Origin: Gossypium raimondii
Lineage: Eukaryota > Streptophyta > Magnoliopsida > Malvales > Malvaceae
Length of the DNA stretch: 64,000 nucleotides
Direction: 5' to 3'
NCBI RefSeq assembly: GCF_025698545.1
Contig: NC_068569.1
Coordinates: 14,632,001-14,696,000 of the forward strand
Notes under the pieces: generated by a model
What the model was told of the DNA's origin: nothing
Database searches by the model: none
Seen by the model: the letters and a program-made list of their open reading frames with translations, nothing else
Made by a program: the position numbers and the translations under genes
Part shown: piece by piece, positions 40,595-64,000 of the stretch
Layout of the letters: each line of letters opens with the position of its first letter
Numbering within the stretch: position 1 is the stretch's first letter

Positions 40595-41338
40595 ATGGCC
40601 GAGGAGCATACCAGTAAGGCCCCTGAGTTGGAGAGCAACGTTAGCGGTGAAGGAGCAGTGGAGAGCAAGGACCGAGGGTTGTTCGATTTCATGGGGAAGA
40701 AAGAAGAGGAGAAGCCTCAAGGGGAGGTGATCGTAACCGAGTTTGAAAAGGTTACTATCGAAGAGACAAAGGCAGAGGAAGAAGGTGAGGAGAAGAAGAA
40801 GCATGGTCTCCTGGAGAAGCTTCACCGATCAGATAGCAGCAGCTCCAGCTCTGTAAGTACACTAATTCACCTGTCGTTAAATTAATGGGACTTGGTTGTA
40901 CTATAATTATCCTAACATGAAATCTGTTGCCTGAACATGCAGTCAAGCGACGAGGAAGAAGGTGAAGGAGAAGAGAAGAAGAAGAAGAAAAAGAAGGAGA
41001 AGAAGGGACTGAAAGAAAAGATTGAAGAGAAGTTAGAAGGAGAGAAGAAAGAAGAGGACACTTCAGTTCCAGTAGAGAAGTGCGATGAGCCAGTAGTCCA
41101 GCCAGAGACGCCAGAGAAGAAAGGTTTCCTCGAGAAGATCAAGGAGAAACTCCCTGGACAACACAAGAAAGCTGAAGAGGCCAGTAGCCCAGCTCCAGCC
41201 CCAGCCCCAGCCCCAGCCCCAGCAGCTGAGCCCCATCACGAAGGGGAGTCAAAGGAAAAGAAGGGAATTTTGGAGAAAATCAAGGAGAAGCTTCCTGGTT
41301 ACCACTCCAAATCAGATGAAGAAAAAGAAAAGGCTTGA
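40595..41338 (+). CDS. Acidic SK-type dehydrin (COR47/ERD10/ERD14 group), 217 aa
   Basis: Dehydrins are disordered stress proteins that coat membranes and enzymes during dehydration and cold. Two exons (40595-40852 and 40943-41338) join in phase 0, with the intron placed inside the serine stretch, as is usual in the family. From the amino end: an acidic segment with GLFDFMGKK (F-segment-like, about residues 30-38), an S-segment ([16 protein letters not shown], residues 77-92), a run of seven lysines (98-104), a degenerate K-segment [15 protein letters not shown] (105-119), a good K-segment [16 protein letters not shown] (144-159), a proline-alanine repeat (169 to about 181) and a final K-segment [16 protein letters not shown] (191-206). 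There is no Y-segment, so it is SK2 to SK3. Upstream ABRE and DRE motifs fit stress induction. Confidence 0.96.
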
Positions 41339-43129: not shown

Positions 43130-46100
43130 ATGCATAAGCACCAGCATTTGTTACCGATTTTTGTTGCTCTTTGTGCAGCTTTTGCCTTGATAGATGAAGT
43201 TGATGGCGAGTATTTGATTGGAGTCGGAAGCTACGATATGACGGGTCCTGCCGCTGGGGTTAACATGATGGGCTACGCTAACATAGATCAGAATACGGCC
43301 GGAATCCATTTCCGACTACGAGCGAGAACTTTCATCGTTGCTGAAAGTTCTCAAGGTGCAAGGTTTGCTTTTGTTAATCTTGATGCAGGCATGGCATCGC
43401 AGCTTGTCACTATAAAAGTGCTTCAGAGACTCAAAACAAGGTAATAAACCAAAGCCATGCAAGATAAGATTAACATATACGATCCACACCGTTTTAGATG
43501 TGAAATGTTTGCTTTTGAAGGTTCGGAGATTTGTATACACAAGAAAATTTGGCGATCAGTGGCACGCATACACATGCTGGGCCTGCTGGTTACTTGCAGT
43601 ACGTGGTTTACTCTGTTACTTCACTAGGGTTTATCAACCAAACGTTCGTTGCGATTGTCACGGCGATCGAGCAAAGCATTATTCAGGCTCACAACAACCT
43701 AAAACCTGGCTCAATCTTGTTGAACACCGGTAAGCGTTTTTCTACTTCAAATGGTTGATTTTCTTTTCCATGAAGGTATATGAGCAGCATGACTAGCAAG
43801 CATCATGACATGTTTTTCTGTAGGGGATGTGGAAAATGCGGGAATAAATAGGAGCCCAAGTGCGTACCTGTTCAACCCTCCAGAAGAAAGGGCTAGATAC
43901 ACCACCAACGTTGATACAACAATGACCCTGTTGAAGCTTTTGGATAGTGCAAGCAATAGGAGCATAGGTGCATTCTCCTGGTTTGCCACGCATGGAACGT
44001 CCATGAGCCGAGAAAACAGGCTCATCAGTGGAGACAACAAAGGCGCCGCTGCCAGGTTTTTTGAAGACTGGTTCACTTTTAGCAACAATTCCCTCTCTAC
44101 TCGAAACACCAAGTTTTCTACCATTCAAAGTAAGCATATCTCGGATTGCCCTCATTATTGTTGTTTAAATTCAGATAATGATAAAAAAAAGAGAACATTC
44201 CATGCACTGTTTGATAGACATCGTACTTGCTTTTGACAATATTTTCGTGTGAGAAAGACATCAGCACACTAAGAAACAAAGCTCAAAAGATCAAGGCCAC
44301 GGGAGGAAAACCCTGTGGGAAAACAACCAGCCAAGGCTTCAAGGTGAGAAAAAACGATGGGTCCAGATTTGTGGGGGCTTTCTGCCAATCAAATGTTGGA
44401 GATGTGACCCCAAATGTGCTAGGAGCATTTTGCACAGACACTGGCAAGCCTTGTGATTTCAATCACTCGTCTTGTAATGGCAATGACCAGCTTTGCGTGG
44501 GGCGTGGCCCTGGGTATTTATACCTTATACCACATATTCTTTTAACTTAAATGACTGTTTGCCTAGTTTTTTTTAACTTAAAAGTGTGAAACAGATACCC
44601 AGATGAAATATTGAGCACAAAGATCATAGGAGAGAGGCAATTCGAAAAGGCCATGGAGCTATTCAGTTCTGCTACTAATCCTTTGAGTGGAAAAATTGAT
44701 TACCGCCACGCGTATATAAATTTCACCAGCATTGAAGTGCAATTGAATGAAAGTACCGTGGTAAAGACTTGTCCAGCGGCTGTTGGAGCGGGTTTTGCTG
44801 CTGGAACTACAGATGGGCCCGGAGTGTTCGGTTTTCAACAAGGAGACACCGAGGTTTGCACTTGGCAATTGGCATCCATATCGGACCATGACTTGCTGTC
44901 TTGGGTCTGTCGTCCTTGAACCTAAGATTTTGGTATCTCCCTGTGTGCAGATAAATGAGATGTGGAAACGATTAAGGGACTTGTTGAAAGAGCCTAGCCA
45001 GTATCAGGTAGATTGCCAAAAACCCAAGCCCGTTTTGCTTAGCACTGGCGAAATGTTTGTCCCCTATGCTTGGGCGGTAAGACCATTTTTAAAGAGCCGT
45101 AAGCTTGTGGTCCAAATACGAACCCTTTCTTTGTTTTGTCTCACACCACTTCACATTTCTGCAGCCCGCTATACTCCCAATTCAAATTCTGAGGTTGGGG
45201 AATTTTGTTATCTTATCTGTGCCTGGAGGTTTGCCTTCTCTTAACTGATCACTTCACCTTCCGGTCTTTGACATATTTATCTTTACGTGACTAAGGTTTT
45301 AGTGCTTACATTAGTCATTTGCCCGAGATAAATGCTCCACTAATTACACTGCAGAGTTCACGACAATGGCTGGTCGGCGGCTGAGGGAAGCAGTTAAAGA
45401 GACATTGATAAATAACGGGAATGGAGAATTTGATAACGAGACACGTGTTGTAATGGCAGGGCTCACAAACACTTATTCTCAGTATATAGTAACTTTTGAG
45501 GAGTACAAGCAGCAGCGATACGAGGTAAGGAAATGGAAGACTACAACAACTCGGATCAAAACAACAAATCTAGTTACCTGCTGCTTTTTGTTTCAATATC
45601 TCATATGGTCCTATATGGAATTTACATATGTAGGCTGCTTCAACACTATATGGTCCTCATACATTATCAGCTTACATCCAAGAGTTTAAGAAACTTGCAA
45701 AAGCAATGGCTACTGGAGAACAGCTCGGTGGAACCGGCTTGTCACCTCCGGATCTTTCCTCTGTTCAACTCAGCCTCTTACAAGATCCTCTAGGAGACTC
45801 ACCGCCCCCTGGCAAAAGATTTGGAGACATGCAGCAAGATGTTGCTCAACCAAAAGGCGGATCATTCAAGAAGGGAGATAAACCGAGTGCTACGTTTTGG
45901 AGCGCTAATCCAAGATATGACCTGCTGATAGAAGGCACATTTGCAGTAGTAGAGATGCTTCAAGGGGAGAGGTGGGTTCCAGTGTACGACGATGACGATT
46001 TTTGCTTGTATTTTAAGTGGAATGTAACAGTTGATAACGGTAGTTTGTATGGTTTAGTAACCATTGAATGGGGAGTGCCAGAGGATGCTGCTTCCGGTGT

Positions 46101-46194
46101 TTATCGGCTCAGGCACTTTGGATCGTCTAAGAAAACGAAGGACTCTCCAAATGAGTACTTTACAGGCGCATCCAGTGCATTCACAGTGTCATGA
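43130..46194 (+). CDS. NCER: Neutral ceramidase, 753 aa, nine exons; catalytic motif Ser replaced by Thr
   Basis: Neutral ceramidase hydrolyses ceramide to sphingoid base and fatty acid at the cell surface or in the endomembrane system. The exons are 43130-43440, 43521-43729, 43824-44129, 44258-44513, 44595-44853, 44951-45076, 45165-45228, 45355-45524 and 45634-46194, all in phase with GT-AG borders. A hydrophobic signal peptide covers about residues 7-22. Conserved blocks are SGTHTHAGPAGYLQYVVY (His120/His122), FATHGTSMS (His230), GRGPGYPDE, VPGEFTTMAGRRLR (Glu511) and TYSQYIVTFEEYKQQRYE; these match the expected zinc-site residues. The nucleophile hexapeptide, GDVSPN in the family, is GDVTPN here (Thr326, codon ACC at 44407-44409), preceded by Val instead of Cys. 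Domain order and length are normal and no frame is broken, so the gene looks functional apart from that residue. The exon 4 acceptor at 44257 was chosen because it alone keeps the frame. Confidence 0.95.
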
Positions 46195-47997: not shown

Positions 47998-50900
47998 ATG
48001 GCAGATCAGCACTCTAATGAGGGTCTGATTACTGGCAATGTTTCTGGGGAATCTTCGAATGCACTAATAGAGCTCAGGGTCAAGACTCTGGATTCACAGA
48101 TATGTAGTCTTCATGTTGAAAAAAATGTAAGCGCTTGCTTTCTAGCTTACGCATTCTCAATATTTTCCTGCAATTCAGTGCAGCCTTAATTTTTAAGAAA
48201 CATGTGCCTCATCCAACTTTTAGCTGATGACTTGTTACTTGGATGTATTCAGACATCAGTCTCTTTGTTCAAGGAGAGAATAGCTAATGCAATTGGTGTT
48301 CCAGTTGGTCAGCAGCGGCTGATTTTTAGGGGAAAGGTCTTAAAGGATGATCATCTCCTTTCTGGATATCATATCCTATTATTTATGTTGTTAGAGAATT
48401 TCATTGTTGCAAGTTAATCAGATTTATTTTAAATTAAAAGTTTTCAATCTGCAGTTCACTGCTGGACCTTCTTAGATGCCATGTTATTGAACAGTTTAAT
48501 CCGAACTCTGTAATTTGAAGCATGAGTGGTGCGTGTATTTATAGCATTACTAGGATTGTAGAATAGTTCTATATTCAGATTGGTTTTATTCCTAACAAAA
48601 TATGTAGACAGCTATTGGTGGTAGCTGCTTATGCAAATTGACCCATTACGTTTACAAGCAGCGAGTCTAAGCAGCGGTTTTCTTTTCCCTTGTTTTCTCT
48701 TGCTATCTCTTTCATATTTTTGGTTAGTAGTTATACCATATGTTCTTATACTATCAACCATGCAAAACTTGGGCAACTCTACATCATATTATCATTCCAA
48801 ATTGATTACAAAGTAAATAGCATCAAGCGATCAACTATTCTATTTCCTAGTCAGTTCATGTTTATTGATGCCAGAATTGAAAATAATCATTTACCCAAAT
48901 ATTGGATGTGACCTTTGTGGTAAAGCAATACCTTGTACTTAATGGGAGATTTGGTAGCTGGTCAGTAATTATAGTTATTGAAAAAGAGAAATCAAGATAT
49001 GAGTATCACAACATCAAGTGCAAGTTTGCAACTCTGTCTAAGTTGTGGTTCACTTTGTGCCTTAAAATCCTTCACTGGTTTTAGATGTTGAGAATGGTGA
49101 TACATTGCACTTAGTTGAAAGACAGCCAACACAATCACAACCTTTGTCTGAAACAAGTTCAGGAGATACAAATGGAAATAACAGTAATGAAGGTATTGAT
49201 ATTTACATTGGTGCTTGTCTGGTCTGTGAAGTTCAGAGCATTTTACTAAAAGCTGCGGCTATCAAGATTTAATTGAAAAATGAATTGGCAGGAAATGATG
49301 CCAGTGCAGGCATTCCTCATAATCGTGTTGGGCAGATCTTGCACAGTGTGGTTCTTGGGACCTTTAATGTTGGAGATCAAGGTGAAGGCATTATTCCAGA
49401 CCTTACTAGGGTGAGTATTTTCTTTATTTTATTTTATTTGTGGAGCATTTCAGTTCAGGTCAAGTGTGTTTCATTCTTTAATTGACATGTGAAATCAGTG
49501 ATATTCTTTATTACTTGACTTATAGGTTATTGGGGCTGTTTTAAATTCTTTTGGAGTTGGAAGCCAGCCTTCTGCTACTAGTACCACCAGGCAGTCTTCA
49601 ACCTCTGTGAGTAATGCTTGATTTCAACATTTGACATTGGGTGGCTTAGAAAAGGCATGATTGCCTTTCACTCAGTGCATATTTCCCCATCTCCTTCCTG
49701 TTTTCACAATTGCTTCAGCTTGAAGAATATCAATTTTAAAAAAAAAAAATTTTACTATTAACTCTAAAGTACATGCTAATGATTCAGATGTTGCTTGAGG
49801 GAAACTAGAAAAGAATGTAATGGTTTTGTAGGGTTTAAGCAATTATTGATATTACTTCCGGTTTCTTAAGTGGAGAATTATATAGAATGTTCAAAGTAAT
49901 TAAATAATCTGTAAATACTGCTTAAATAAAGCTCTCTTTCAGGCTCCTCAAGGAATTTCAACAGATGGAGTGCGTGGTGGTGGGCCTGGTGGTGAGAACC
50001 AAGCAGGAATTCAGACACAGTCTCCCCAATCATTTCCAGCCGCTACTCAATTCATTCCTGTTCCTCTTACTGCTGCACCAATACCCGTTCCTTCACTTAA
50101 TTCGGTTGTACAAATGAACTATTCATTTTTCTAGCAGATTATACTCTGGTTGTTATCTAATCCCATAATTTCCTTTTTCTCCAGCCAATTCCTGATTCTT
50201 TAAATACGCTCTCAGAGTTTATGAACCACATGGAAGCACATTCTCCAAATGGTGATATTTTAAAAGGCATTAACTCACAGATCTTTTCTGAAAAATAGTT
50301 ATAGTAAATAACTGCTGCTGCATTATGTAGGTTATCAACCGCACACTTCTGTGACTAACAGAAGAGAGCAACCAAGGGTAGCATTACCATCGGATGCACG
50401 GGGTTTTCCGACACCTGAAGCATTGAGCATTGTAATGCGACATGTAGAACAGCTTCTCAGCAGTCATGCTATTGCTGCGTTGTCTGTAAGTATTACGCCT
50501 TATGGTTTCTAAGTTAACTATTTTCCGGAATGTTTGAAGCTTTTTATTGGTAATGTTTTTGAAAATGATGTTGGGATTGATGTGTTATCTTGGAGACTAG
50601 TTTCTATATATAATTTTATATCCTTATATCCATTTTCCATTGAAACCTATGTCAATTCTCTTTCACATGTTCTCATTTGATTTCCCAATTTGCCTCACTT
50701 GGTCCAAGAACCCGGGAGAAAGAGGTTATCGAATTCTTAATTGCCATGTACTTTCTCATGTCTGGAGCAATTTGCTTGATTTATGATATATAACATTTTA
50801 AGACATGTAAAATCATGGCATTCTCTGCGGAAAACTTTTGCATGTTGTAACGTTCATGATTACATGTAAGATTGTTGCAACTAAGTTTGCAATATAAGGT

Positions 50901-53900
50901 CTTTTGGCTTTGATGCAGGTAAATTATGAAGTGGAAAATGTGTATAACTGACACTGAGGATTCTTTACACTGAATCTTTCACATACCTTTTCTTTTTCCT
51001 GTCAAGTTTGAAATGTTTAACATCTGATAATATGCATCTTTAATTTGCTACAACTTTTGTAGCATATTGCAGGACGTTTAGAGCAAGAGAGGAATTCTAC
51101 TGATCCTGCACTGAGGGGGCAAATTCAAACAGAGTCTGCGCAAGTAGGTCTTACAATGCAGCATTTAGGTGCCCTTCTTTTAGAGCTTGGTCGAACCATA
51201 TTGATGCTGCGTATGGGGCATTCTCCTGTATGTAATCACTTGCATTATTATCTCCATTAAAATGGTAACATGTCACTAAAATGTTTTATGCAATTTATAG
51301 GCGGAATCTTCAGTCAACGCTGGACCAGCAGTATATATATCTCCTTCTGGGCCAAATCCTATTATGGTTCAGGTTTGCTAAAAATTTATTGGCATTGTGT
51401 CGATTTTGTCAAATAACTGCAACTCTGAGCAATGCAATCAAGCATTGCAGATACTTTCATGTTGTTTAATCCTGTTAATTTAAGTGTTTGAACTCTCTTT
51501 GGGATCCTGCTAATCATGCAAGCATTGATTTGTGGTTTTGCAGCCTTTTCCCCTTCAAACCAGCTCCCTCTTAAGTAGTTCCAATTCTCCACCAAATTCT
51601 CTTAATATAAGTCCGGCTGGGATTGGAAACACTCCAAGGAACATTAATATCCATATACATGCTGGTGGGTAATATCTGCTTCAACTCAGACTGTAATGTT
51701 CTTTAAACTGAAGCAAAGTGACTTCTGTTGTTTAATAATTACCATTATTATCAGGCACCGCACCGGCTCCTATGGTTTCAGCAGTTGGTAATCGAACAGG
51801 CAATGGGGGAGGGGTGCAAGGGGAACATGGTAATAATGCTGGTCCTGATCCAATGCGGGTTCTTCCTGTGCGAAATGTTATTGCTGCTGCTCACCCTGCA
51901 CATTCCACTGGTGCAATGTCCGGTGTAGCACAATCTGCACCCACAGATTCATCTCTATCCTCTGCTCTTGCCGAAGTCACTTCAAGAATTCGAGACCTTG
52001 TTAGTAATATGCAGGGGCAGAACCAGGGTGCATCAGGTAGCTGGCTATTAATTGTTTTTAGATACTAATAACTACAATGTTACTTGTTCATATGGTATGT
52101 TAGTAACATGCAGGGAGAGAACTGGTTTGCATCTGATAGCTGGCACTGAATGGTTTTGGGATGCAAACAATGACAGGATGCAAACAATGACAATGTTACT
52201 TATTCATATGGTATCTTTTCGTTTTTAGGGTAAAAGCAAAATCTGATGTGGATATATTGTATCTGGTGCAGGTGATGATGCTGGAACTGGACAGCCTGAT
52301 AATATGGCTGCTAGTGGAGCAGGGGATTCTAGCGTTGCATTACTAGCAGATCTTCATGCAACTGAAGAACAGGTGTGCTTTGTTCACAATAAAATAAAAT
52401 GACCTTATTTGCAGCCATCTGTTTAGTACTCTAACCAGTACTCTGTTACTATTAATGATCAGTCACAACCTCAACTTGCTGAACATAGTAACAATACTAC
52501 TGAGAGTGGTAAGAGTTCAAAGGATGTATCCACTGGCACAGTTGGATGCCCTCCAAGTTCAAGTGGAGAATTCTTGGTAAAGTCAGAAGACCCTTCAGCA
52601 AGTGTCCAGAAATCCACCGAGGAAAATGCCAAACCTGTTCCACTTGGATTGGGGTTGGGAGGATTGGGGCGTAAGGTGTGATGTCATTTCTTACTTCATT
52701 CTAAATTATTTATGTTACTACCATCAAAAGTGATAACATGGTATCATTGTGGTCAGAGACGGGTCAACCGGGCAAAATCATCTCTCAGTACTAGAGATAC
52801 TGGAACAACTAGCTCTTCTCTTGATGAGAGCTTGAGTGCTAGAACGACTGGCCAAAAGATTTTGCAGTCACTTGCATCTCAGAGCTCTTCTATGAATAGG
52901 GTGGAAGATGATTCTTTGTCGAGTAATCCTGGCATTCAGAGTAATAGATCGTCAGGAGTGCAAAGTTCTGATGATCAATTAGATGTTGCTAATGCTGTCT
53001 CTCAAGTTCTTCAAAGCCCTGCAATAAATGGCTTATTGGCTGGGGTTTCTGAGCAGACTGGTGTCGGTTCACCAGATGTTTTTAGGAATATGCTGCGGCA
53101 ACTTACTCAAAGTCCACAAATCATGAACACTGTCAATCAAATAGCCCAGCAGGTTGATAGCCAGGATATTGGAAACATGTTTTCTGGATTGGGAGGAGGA
53201 CAAGGTGGTGGAGTTGATCTGTCAAGCATGGTCCAACAAATGATGCCTATTGCTTCTCAGGCCCTTGGTCAAGGGGCATCTGCACCTCCGCCATTCCATG
53301 CTGTAGAACCTAAACAGCAGGTCCATCATGATGGAAGGAGGTCTAATGCAGCTGATAAACCTTGTGATAGTGATTTTCAGGTTTTTCTTAATTGAATTTC
53401 CTGTTTTATTTTTAGCAACTAACAGTTAATTAGTGTGTAATTAGTAAGAGATGCTGACATGGTGGCTATTGTATCTGGTATTTCTTCTAGGATAACATTC
53501 AACAAACAGCTCAGAGGATTGAGCAATTAAATTCGCCCTTTGATGTCTTCCATGCAGTTGCTGAAATTGCATTTCAGGTATATGGCATTGACAATGGGAG
53601 GAATACTGAAGAATTTCTGAGTGAGTTGTGTGGTGATGAGAGTCTTGCTGAGGTAGGTTCTGTGGTTGTGCGACCTTTCATACTAGTCTTTAACGTCTAA
53701 TAGTGTTTCCTAGCAGTTAAAAGCGCTTGCGGTTAAAAAAATGCTTCCATAATGGGGAGAAGGAAAAAGGACTAAGACAATGTTGTCCATTTAGTCTGCC
53801 TAATGTTTCTTGGTGATTATTGGCTTGGAACTCATTGTGTTTTCTGACTCGTCCAGGAATACATAGAGATGCTACGGCAGGACATTCGTCAAAGGTTTCA

Positions 53901-60571: not shown

Positions 60572-63500
60572 ATGCCGCTTCATTCGGCCGTGGCATTGAT
60601 TTGTGCCACTGTTTCTCTTTTTGTCATTGCCGGAGCTGAAGATCCCTACAGATTCTTCAACTGGAATGTCACTTATGGTGACATTTTCCCTCTCGGCGTT
60701 CGTCAAACGGTGAGTTTTCGATAGTATACATTTTTCGTTTTGATTTGATTATGTTTCTGGATCTATCTCTATATACATGAAAAATGATCGATGCTGACGA
60801 ATTGTTTTCCAGGGTATTCTCATCAATGGGCAATTCCCAGGCCCTGATATCCACTCTGTTACCAATGACAACCTCATTATCAACGTCTTTAACAGCTTAA
60901 ACGAGCCTTTCCTCCTTTCCTGGTAAGATCCAATCATCCCTACCTATGTTCTCACCACCAACATTTTGCGCTCAGCTTTTTACGCGCCCTTCTTTTGAAA
61001 AAGACGAATCTAACCCATCATTATCGACTTATCCCACTGACGTACGATGCACATATTTGTAATCTATACGCTTTCTTCCGACAACCATCCGCCTTAATCG
61101 GTCACTCACACTTTAGACTTGCTATTGAACAATGTCTGGTCGGTCGGACTCATTCATTTTGCTTCTTTTTTCTGCTTTATTAAACGTGAACGCTAGGGAA
61201 AACATACATATATGCAATTGGTGACATGGCTGATCTGCGTTTAAATCAGCATAATATCATTGCATTTCTTAACTATTTTCTGCAAAAATACATTATCCAC
61301 GGAACTGGCAGTTTGCCACTCAAATCAAGCGTCCGCCGTTTATCGTGGTATATAGTGGAGCACATAATTACCTTTTTCGTTGTTAGTATCAGTTTACAAG
61401 TAAGCGGGTTCTTTCCTTTGCTGTAATTAGAGGTAGAAAGCGACATGTCCTTGATTGGGAGAGGCAACATTTACCCACTAATTATCATCCGTGATCCAAG
61501 TGGTCCACCTTCTAATTAGCTGTCTACCACCCCTAACAGATAGAGCAAGTGGATTAGGAATTCTTTTGGATAGATATATGGACCCAGAACCAAAGGTGGT
61601 CTTAATTGTTAGCTTTATCAATTATCACGTCTATATTTTGTTAAATATTGATGCTAATTTGTTTTGTCAAAATTCTGATAAACTAGTAGATGATTCGTTT
61701 ATGAACTTGCAACTCCATTGTCGTAATGTACGTAGTTGTATCAATTTAGCTTGAATTTTACAAATTGATTTTAATAACAATCAATAACTTAAATTTAATC
61801 AACTTAAAATTTATCATCTCGAACAAAAAAATAAATTCAAAATAATTTAAACCTAAAATAAATTCAAATTTTAAAATGAAATAAAGGTTAGACTATTTTG
61901 ATTCAATCCAAAACTATCCCAAGCTATGTGACTTATTTACCTTTAGTAACTTACATGGAGATGATAAATATGTAGGAATGGAGTCCAAAACAGGAGGAAT
62001 TCATATGAAGATGGTGTATACGGAACAACATGCCCTATCCCTCCAGGAAAGAACTTCACATACATTCTGCAGGTGAAGGATCAAATAGGAAGCTTCTATT
62101 ACTTCCCTTCTCTTGGGTTCCACAAGGCTGCTGGTGGTTTTGGAGGGATTAGGATCCTTAGCCGACCACGCATCCCGGTTCCCTTCCCAGATCCTGCTGG
62201 AGATTACACTGTCCTTATTGGAGATTGGTACAAGGCCAATCACACGGTAATAATTTCTTCTTTTTACAAAGCCTTGGTTTATTTATATTTACTTGCTTTT
62301 AGGAGGCTTTGAAATGGAATAATGCATGCATGATATTCATAACTGGCCGGGGATATGGGCATCGGGGTCTACGAAAACTTAACGTGGTGGGACTGGGGAA
62401 CACTTCGTGTCTGGGGATTTTAAATGGGTTTGGCAACGGAGTTGGATAAACGAAGCATATTATATGGCATACGGGGCTTTATTCGGTGTGATGGTTTCTG
62501 TGCCATTTCACAGCTGGATACGTTGACAGGCTTTTTCTCTCTCATATCATATCCTGCTGAATTTAATTTTCAGAGTTTTAATTATGATTTTGTATTTCTA
62601 TCCCACTATCATACTATACCTAAAAAATTTAGTTTAAAATCTCATTAGATAATATCAGTTTTTTTGACATAATACTTAAAATTGATCATAATTCTCCTAA
62701 CTCATAAATAAAAGAATAATACGTATTAGCACATTTGAACATACGTCTTTCTGCATTGACAACAAGATTCATATCAACTCAATCAATTAATCTAAAATTT
62801 AAAATTAAACATTAATAAAGGGATGGAAATCATAATTTTACGGAAGGCAGCGAATTTTAAATATTTTCAGAGAAATTGTTGCTTTTCATATTAAGCATCA
62901 ATCACTCGCGAATCTCAAATTATTGAAAAGCATTAGCATATGGTACTTTCATGGGATGTGCTCAACTTAGGGCCCAAAGCAAATTAGGTATTTGCATTCC
63001 CGCTGCACTGCCCACATGTTGTTTCATCTGGGCCCAGCGCATGCCAAGAAAGATTTCTAAGCTCTGTTGGTGGTGGGCTTTAATTAATTAATGATTCTGG
63101 TATTTGCATTAGATTTTAGTTTTATTGAGGTCTGAATGTCTGATACAGTAGTAATCTGGCTTGTGGCTAATTAGAAATTGTGTTTGGTGCAGGATTTGAG
63201 AGCTCAACTGGATAGTGGTAGGAAGCTACCTTTCCCTGATGGAATCCTTATCAACGGCCGTGGACCTGGCGGTGCTTCCTTCAACGTCGAACAAGGTAAT
63301 TTTCGTCGGTCTTAATTTCCTTCAATGTTGCTTCGGTCATTATTCAAGTATTTTGAACATAAATAAACAATGCTGGCCATCATGCAGGGAAAACCTACAG
63401 GCTTAGGATATCAAATGTTGGATTGCAAAATTCTCTCAATTTCCGCATCCAAAACCACAAGTTGAAGTTGGTTGAAGTGGAGGGAACCCACACTCTCCAA

Positions 63501-64000
63501 ACTACCTACTCCTCAATAGACCTTCACCTTGGCCAATCAATGTCCGTTTTATTTACAGCCGATCAGCCTGCTCAAGACTATTACATTGTGGTCTCCTCTC
63601 GCTTTACCAACCCGGTTCTCACCTCAACAGCAACTCTACGCTATAGCAACTCAGCCGGTCCCGTCTCCGGCCCTCCTCCTGGTGGTCCCACCATCCAAGT
63701 TGACTGGTCTTTGAACCAAGCCCGCTCTATCAGGTGCTTTTTATCTACCAATCAACATAGACAGCACGTCATTGTGTGCATCTGTTCTAGTCACATTATT
63801 GACATGTTTCTGTTTCAGGACTAACCTTACAGCAAGTGGACCAAGGCCTAACCCACAGGGGTCGTATCACTATGGTCTCATTAATACGACCAGAACCATC
63901 AGGCTTGCCAATTCTGCCGGCCAAGTCAATGGCAAGCAAAGATATGCAGTTAACAGTGTTTCCTTTGTTCCAGCAGACACTCCTTTGAAACTTGCAGACT
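60572..64000 (+). CDS. SKU5-similar (SKS/NTP303-type) monocopper-oxidase-like protein, 5' part (383 aa, incomplete)
   Basis: SKS proteins are secreted or GPI-anchored cupredoxin-fold proteins at the cell wall, implicated in directional growth and pollen tube growth. Six exons are visible: 60572-60709, 60813-60922, 61976-62246, 63193-63295, 63388-63733 and 63819 to the window end. All are in phase with GT-AG borders. A signal peptide (about residues 5-21) ends near AGAEDPY. Family blocks follow: FFNWNVTYGDIFPLGV, ILINGQFPGPDI, NGVQNRRNSYEDGVYGT, CPIPPGKNFTY, VKDQIGSFYYFPS, LIGDWY, ILINGRGPGG, TYRLRISNVG and NQARSIR. The multicopper-oxidase HWHG ligand motif reads SWNG here and YHSH-type motifs are FYYFPS, so the trinuclear copper site is absent, as in the whole SKS family. 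About 150-200 carboxyl residues lie beyond 64000. Confidence 0.95.

Follow-up and report, generated by a model that had tools for sequence, protein, structure and literature searches.

The neutral ceramidase gene analysed here, which lies in a window of 64,000 nucleotides (the whole stretch of Gossypium raimondii DNA under study), carries threonine where the amidase hexapeptide GDVSPN has serine, and as far as sequence comparison tells this variant is most likely ordinary across the family, unusual beside the sister genes of the same genome and compatible with activity. We consider it likely, and hold this with good confidence, that the gene encodes a working, probably secretory-pathway neutral ceramidase in which the hydroxyl of Thr326 takes the role of the serine, the change being near-neutral or a mild tuning. 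The sequence-only reading had named three options, a threonine-using enzyme, a dead paralog and an erroneous base; a working enzyme that uses threonine fits best, and neither of the other two is needed.

The gene consists of nine exons on the + strand (Table 1), with GT-AG at 8/8 introns, no internal stop and a spliced product of 753 aa, and the end of the stop codon lies at 46194. Both the nine open exons and the placing of codon ACC, as Thr326 within NVGDVTPN, had been read from the bare sequence; they proved right, coordinates and residue numbers included. PF04734 matches residues 28-583 (E 1.2e-218, 727.4 bits) and PF17048 residues 585-752 (149.5 bits), both above the curated cut-offs, and the two domains of a neutral/non-lysosomal ceramidase are thus found across nearly the whole protein. 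Plant neutral ceramidases (NCER) share these two domains and the zinc and pocket residues with the window protein, and the nine-exon structure is common to the window gene and its three paralogs. As to the neighbourhood, a dehydrin gene lies just upstream (40595-41338, + strand; its second-exon ORF matches PF00257, E 3.8e-23), and a multi-exon gene downstream (48000-53400, + strand) resembles by eye a ubiquitin-like-domain, BAG6-type protein, in which a Pfam scan of the ORF at 52682-53392 gave no family. Further on, the ORF at 63363-63821 (+ strand) matches multicopper oxidase PF00394 (E 2.6e-31).

Table 1. Features of the neutral ceramidase gene (positions in the window; residues numbered in the spliced product)
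Feature	Positions	Strand	Content	Basis
Exon 1	43130..43440	+	start codon; ceramidase domain begins	spliced model, Pfam
Exon 1, N-terminus	within 43130..43440	+	signal-peptide-like	judged by eye
Exon 2	43521..43729	+	THTH block, His120 and His122	spliced model; 4wgk mapping
Exon 3	43824..44129	+	Arg183 (human Arg257), His230 (human His303)	
Exon 4	44258..44513	+	NVGDVTPN block; cysteines 334, 341, 348, 355	
Thr326 codon ACC	44407..44409	+	equivalent to human Ser354	read from window
Exon 5	44595..44853	+		spliced model
Exon 6	44951..45076	+		spliced model
Exon 7	45165..45228	+		spliced model
Exon 8	45355..45524	+	Glu511, Tyr554, Tyr566	
Exon 9	45634..46194	+	C-terminal domain PF17048 and stop	

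Human ASAH2 (4wgk) aligns with most of the window protein (E 2.2e-168), and mapping on it places H120, H122, R183, H230, E511, Y554 and Y566 on human H194, H196, R257, H303, E540, Y579 and Y591; all seven zinc and pocket residues are present. Human His194, the counterpart of His120, is a zinc ligand. The earlier view that the zinc ligands are kept stands for the residues, but one ligand label needs changing, His120 being human His194 and His122 being His196. The counterparts of the four residues that a review names for the human enzyme (H196, R257, Y579 and Y591; PMC6952831) are all present, and window cysteines 334, 341, 348, 355, 420 and 469 fall on disulfide cysteines named in the same text. 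The two proteins differ at Thr326, which is Ser354 in the human enzyme, and at Val322, where the human enzyme has Leu.

How rare is threonine at this site? An alignment query (A1), headed by a Thr-bearing protein and with Ser in its other two rows, a bias to be borne in mind, was run on public bacterial and archaeal genomes, and the best 80 of 98 relatives had Thr in 43 and Ser in 37. A family search in four phyla, with matches in 7/398, 27/396, 21/395 and 169/193 genomes, many of them partial or distant, provided a second set of 100 loci. Pooling the 180 bacterial loci (L012-L191) and keeping ORFs no shorter than 350 aa which matched the window protein with E up to 1e-20 gave 128 ORF matches and, once identical ones were removed, 116 distinct ORFs (69/80 of the first set and 47/100 of the second), with no pair at or above 99% identity. 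Among these, Thr was found in 67, Ser in 47 and Val in 2. The sequence-only reading had called the serine near-invariant, a claim which these counts do not bear out for the family: Thr in 67/116 means that the Ser of GDVSPN, which the window protein replaces by Thr326, does not define it. Since Ser is not near-invariant, the case for an odd or dead enzyme loses force, and since Thr is common among bacterial relatives, a natural variant is probable rather than a broken enzyme or a new kind of one. Ser does hold in the three other plant loci and in both distinct solved sequences.

The residues around the site are kept whatever its state, the zinc and pocket residues being found in at least 114/116 bacterial proteins irrespective of Ser, Thr or Val (His120, His122, Arg183, Glu511 and Tyr554 sites in 115/116, the other being a gap; His230 in 116/116; Tyr566 in 114/116). 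Like the window protein, bacterial homologs with GDVTPN or GDMTPN combine Thr with the zinc set, and NEGDVTPN with the full catalytic set occurs in 38/118 aligned proteins, plant rows included; they differ from it in being open frames without introns and in their identity (30-40% for the whole set of the best 80). The closest Thr/Ser pair among the 116 ORFs is 85.3% identical (546/640 positions). Within the second set, the phylum of Myxococcus (G002) contributed 30/47 rows, 28 Thr and 2 Ser, these being its best-scoring matches in an uneven sampling; the phylum of Streptomyces (G003) had 3 Thr, 9 Ser and 1 Val (n=13), and the remaining two phyla 1 Thr and 1 Val (n=2) and 2 Ser (n=2). When the window protein alone was used for scanning, viral contigs gave no pattern match, and genome contigs gave 18 pattern matches with 0 confirmed relatives. 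The two bacterial homologs with Val (L093, GDVVAN, and L110, GDVVSN) retain the zinc residues, L110 having also Asp at the Tyr566 site, and on sequence these two seem more promising than the window gene as places to look for a changed mechanism.

The picture inside the plant genome is different. When the 750.8 Mb genome that contains the window was searched for members of the family, 26 exon-level matches were obtained. They belong to four loci, namely the window gene plus three sisters (L009, L010 and L011), a copy number resting on a search in which only the best candidates were scored. Alignment with these same-genome ceramidases, proposed as a check on the original observation, returned Ser in 3/3: all three sisters read NCGDVSPN, with codons AAT TGT/TGC GGT GAT GTT/GTC AGT/AGC CCC/CCG, so that the Cys-to-Val and Ser-to-Thr changes are real differences inside this genome. 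The neighbouring Cys-to-Val change had also been pointed out beforehand; it does set the window protein apart from its sisters, but the Cys is not a conserved residue, as it occurs in 2/116 bacterial ORFs at position 322 (Glu 52, Ala 44, Pro 8, Ser 5, Leu 2, His 1, Thr 1 and Gln 1 in the others). An error of base calling or assembly at the Ser codon would take a single base, from the AGC of one sister to ACC, and it is nevertheless barely credible, because the whole block has diverged: Val322 lies two more base changes away from TGT, residue 320 is Ser in the window protein and Thr in the sisters, and Thr is a common state in the family.

Spliced sisters are 76.8-86.2% identical to one another, whereas each is 60.6-61.0% identical to the window protein, the most divergent of the four, which on this comparison makes the window gene a divergent, probably old paralog. 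Exons 2, 6, 7 and 8 have equal lengths in all four. One dN/dS method returned no dS for the window gene against its paralogs, which we read as saturation. A further difference lies before the first His of THTH, where the three sisters have Ile (SGIHTH) and the window and human proteins Thr (SGTHTH).

Is the window protein then a catalytically weak or dead paralog, retained for binding or regulation? Beyond the Ser kept in the three sisters and the two solved sequences, this reading can draw on the tree and on column conservation. In a quick tree of 75 rows, which carried long-branch warnings and was built with the Thr326 site itself excluded, the window gene is the deepest of this genome's four plant branches, and its end branch measures 0.39. 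The rows had been thinned from 120 by leaving out 2 short ones and merging those that shared a state and were more than 85% identical; among the rows that remained, Ser outnumbers Thr (Ser 43, Thr 30 and Val 2, the four plant rows included). In favour of a working enzyme, the Ser/Thr/Val state requires at least 13 changes on this tree. At bacterial columns conserved to at least 98%, the window protein keeps 51/53 and the sisters 53 each; at the 95% level it keeps 75/83, that is, it loses eight columns where each sister (79, 79 and 79) loses four; and at the 90% level it keeps 118/140 against 126, 126 and 124. A slight relaxation of the window protein is possible. A weak or dead paralog is clearly unlikely all the same: the zinc and pocket residues are all retained, Thr is the state of 67/116 distinct bacterial ORFs, and two of the eight departures at 95% columns (Ala126 and Ala568) are the human residues.

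The window protein most likely functions as a zinc amidase in which Thr takes over from Ser. In such an enzyme, zinc-activated water would attack the amide of ceramide and the Thr326 hydroxyl would do the job of the sisters' Ser, holding the pocket Arg as in the published account of the human enzyme; the exchange would then be close to neutral, or would slightly adjust rate or substrate, rather than abolish function, and the extra methyl group of Thr may shift rate or substrate range. A Thr nucleophile with an acyl-enzyme intermediate appears very improbable to us. It would follow the older amidase-motif view of the hexapeptide Ser, reportedly that of a 2006 paper, whereas the review assigns this Ser a structural role, Ser354 holding or stabilising Arg257 (PMC6952831); even on the older view, Thr is common in the family, hence not new. 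Other papers report that the amidase domain of human nCDase proved essential for activity (PMC5773612) and give the motif with Ser, GDVSPN, as conserved in various organisms (PMC5874051), and a literature search for GDVTPN as a text string found no match. For the alkaline ceramidase ACER3, the authors of one paper consider that a conserved Ser most likely stabilises the oxyanion, and they mention that Thr has been proposed for such a role in LpxC (PMC9436119). ACER3 is unrelated to neutral ceramidase and serves as an analogy only; taken together with the Ser354-Arg257 account, it makes the replacement of a Ser hydroxyl by that of Thr chemically plausible.

A lead on the function of the gene comes from mycorrhiza. 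The clade of plant neutral ceramidases with Pt5g001130 and Medtr3g079190 is said to be unique to arbuscular-mycorrhizal (AM) hosts. An expression atlas confines expression of the Medicago gene to mycorrhizal roots, its RNAi lowers colonisation, it is among highly induced candidates (PMC4274732) and CCAAT motifs are listed in its promoter (PMC9554486). Because it is the deepest plant branch in this genome, the window gene may be a candidate member of this clade. A bolder proposal, that it does belong there and that Ser-to-Thr with Cys-to-Val is a clade mark tuning the pocket for ceramides of the fungal interface, strikes us as doubtful. We scanned promoters for motifs of mycorrhiza type. In the 2 kb upstream of the window gene, CTTCTTGTTC, TCTTGTTC and GNATATNC are all absent, CTTCTTG occurs once (-202), CCAAT at -1056, -1005, -631 and -215, and CGN7CNANG once, at -1999. 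The same kinds of motif are present in the control promoters of the three sisters, where CCAAT has 5, 3 and 13 matches, L010 has two of CTTCTTG, and L011 has one each of TCTTGTTC and CGN7CNANG. If the window gene is a mycorrhiza-linked NCER, Thr326 would be a residue to test in symbiosis.

For the family at large, our comparison suggests that Ser and Thr can replace each other in nature at this place in the so-called amidase hexapeptide; if so, the motif is not enough by itself for declaring a ceramidase dead.
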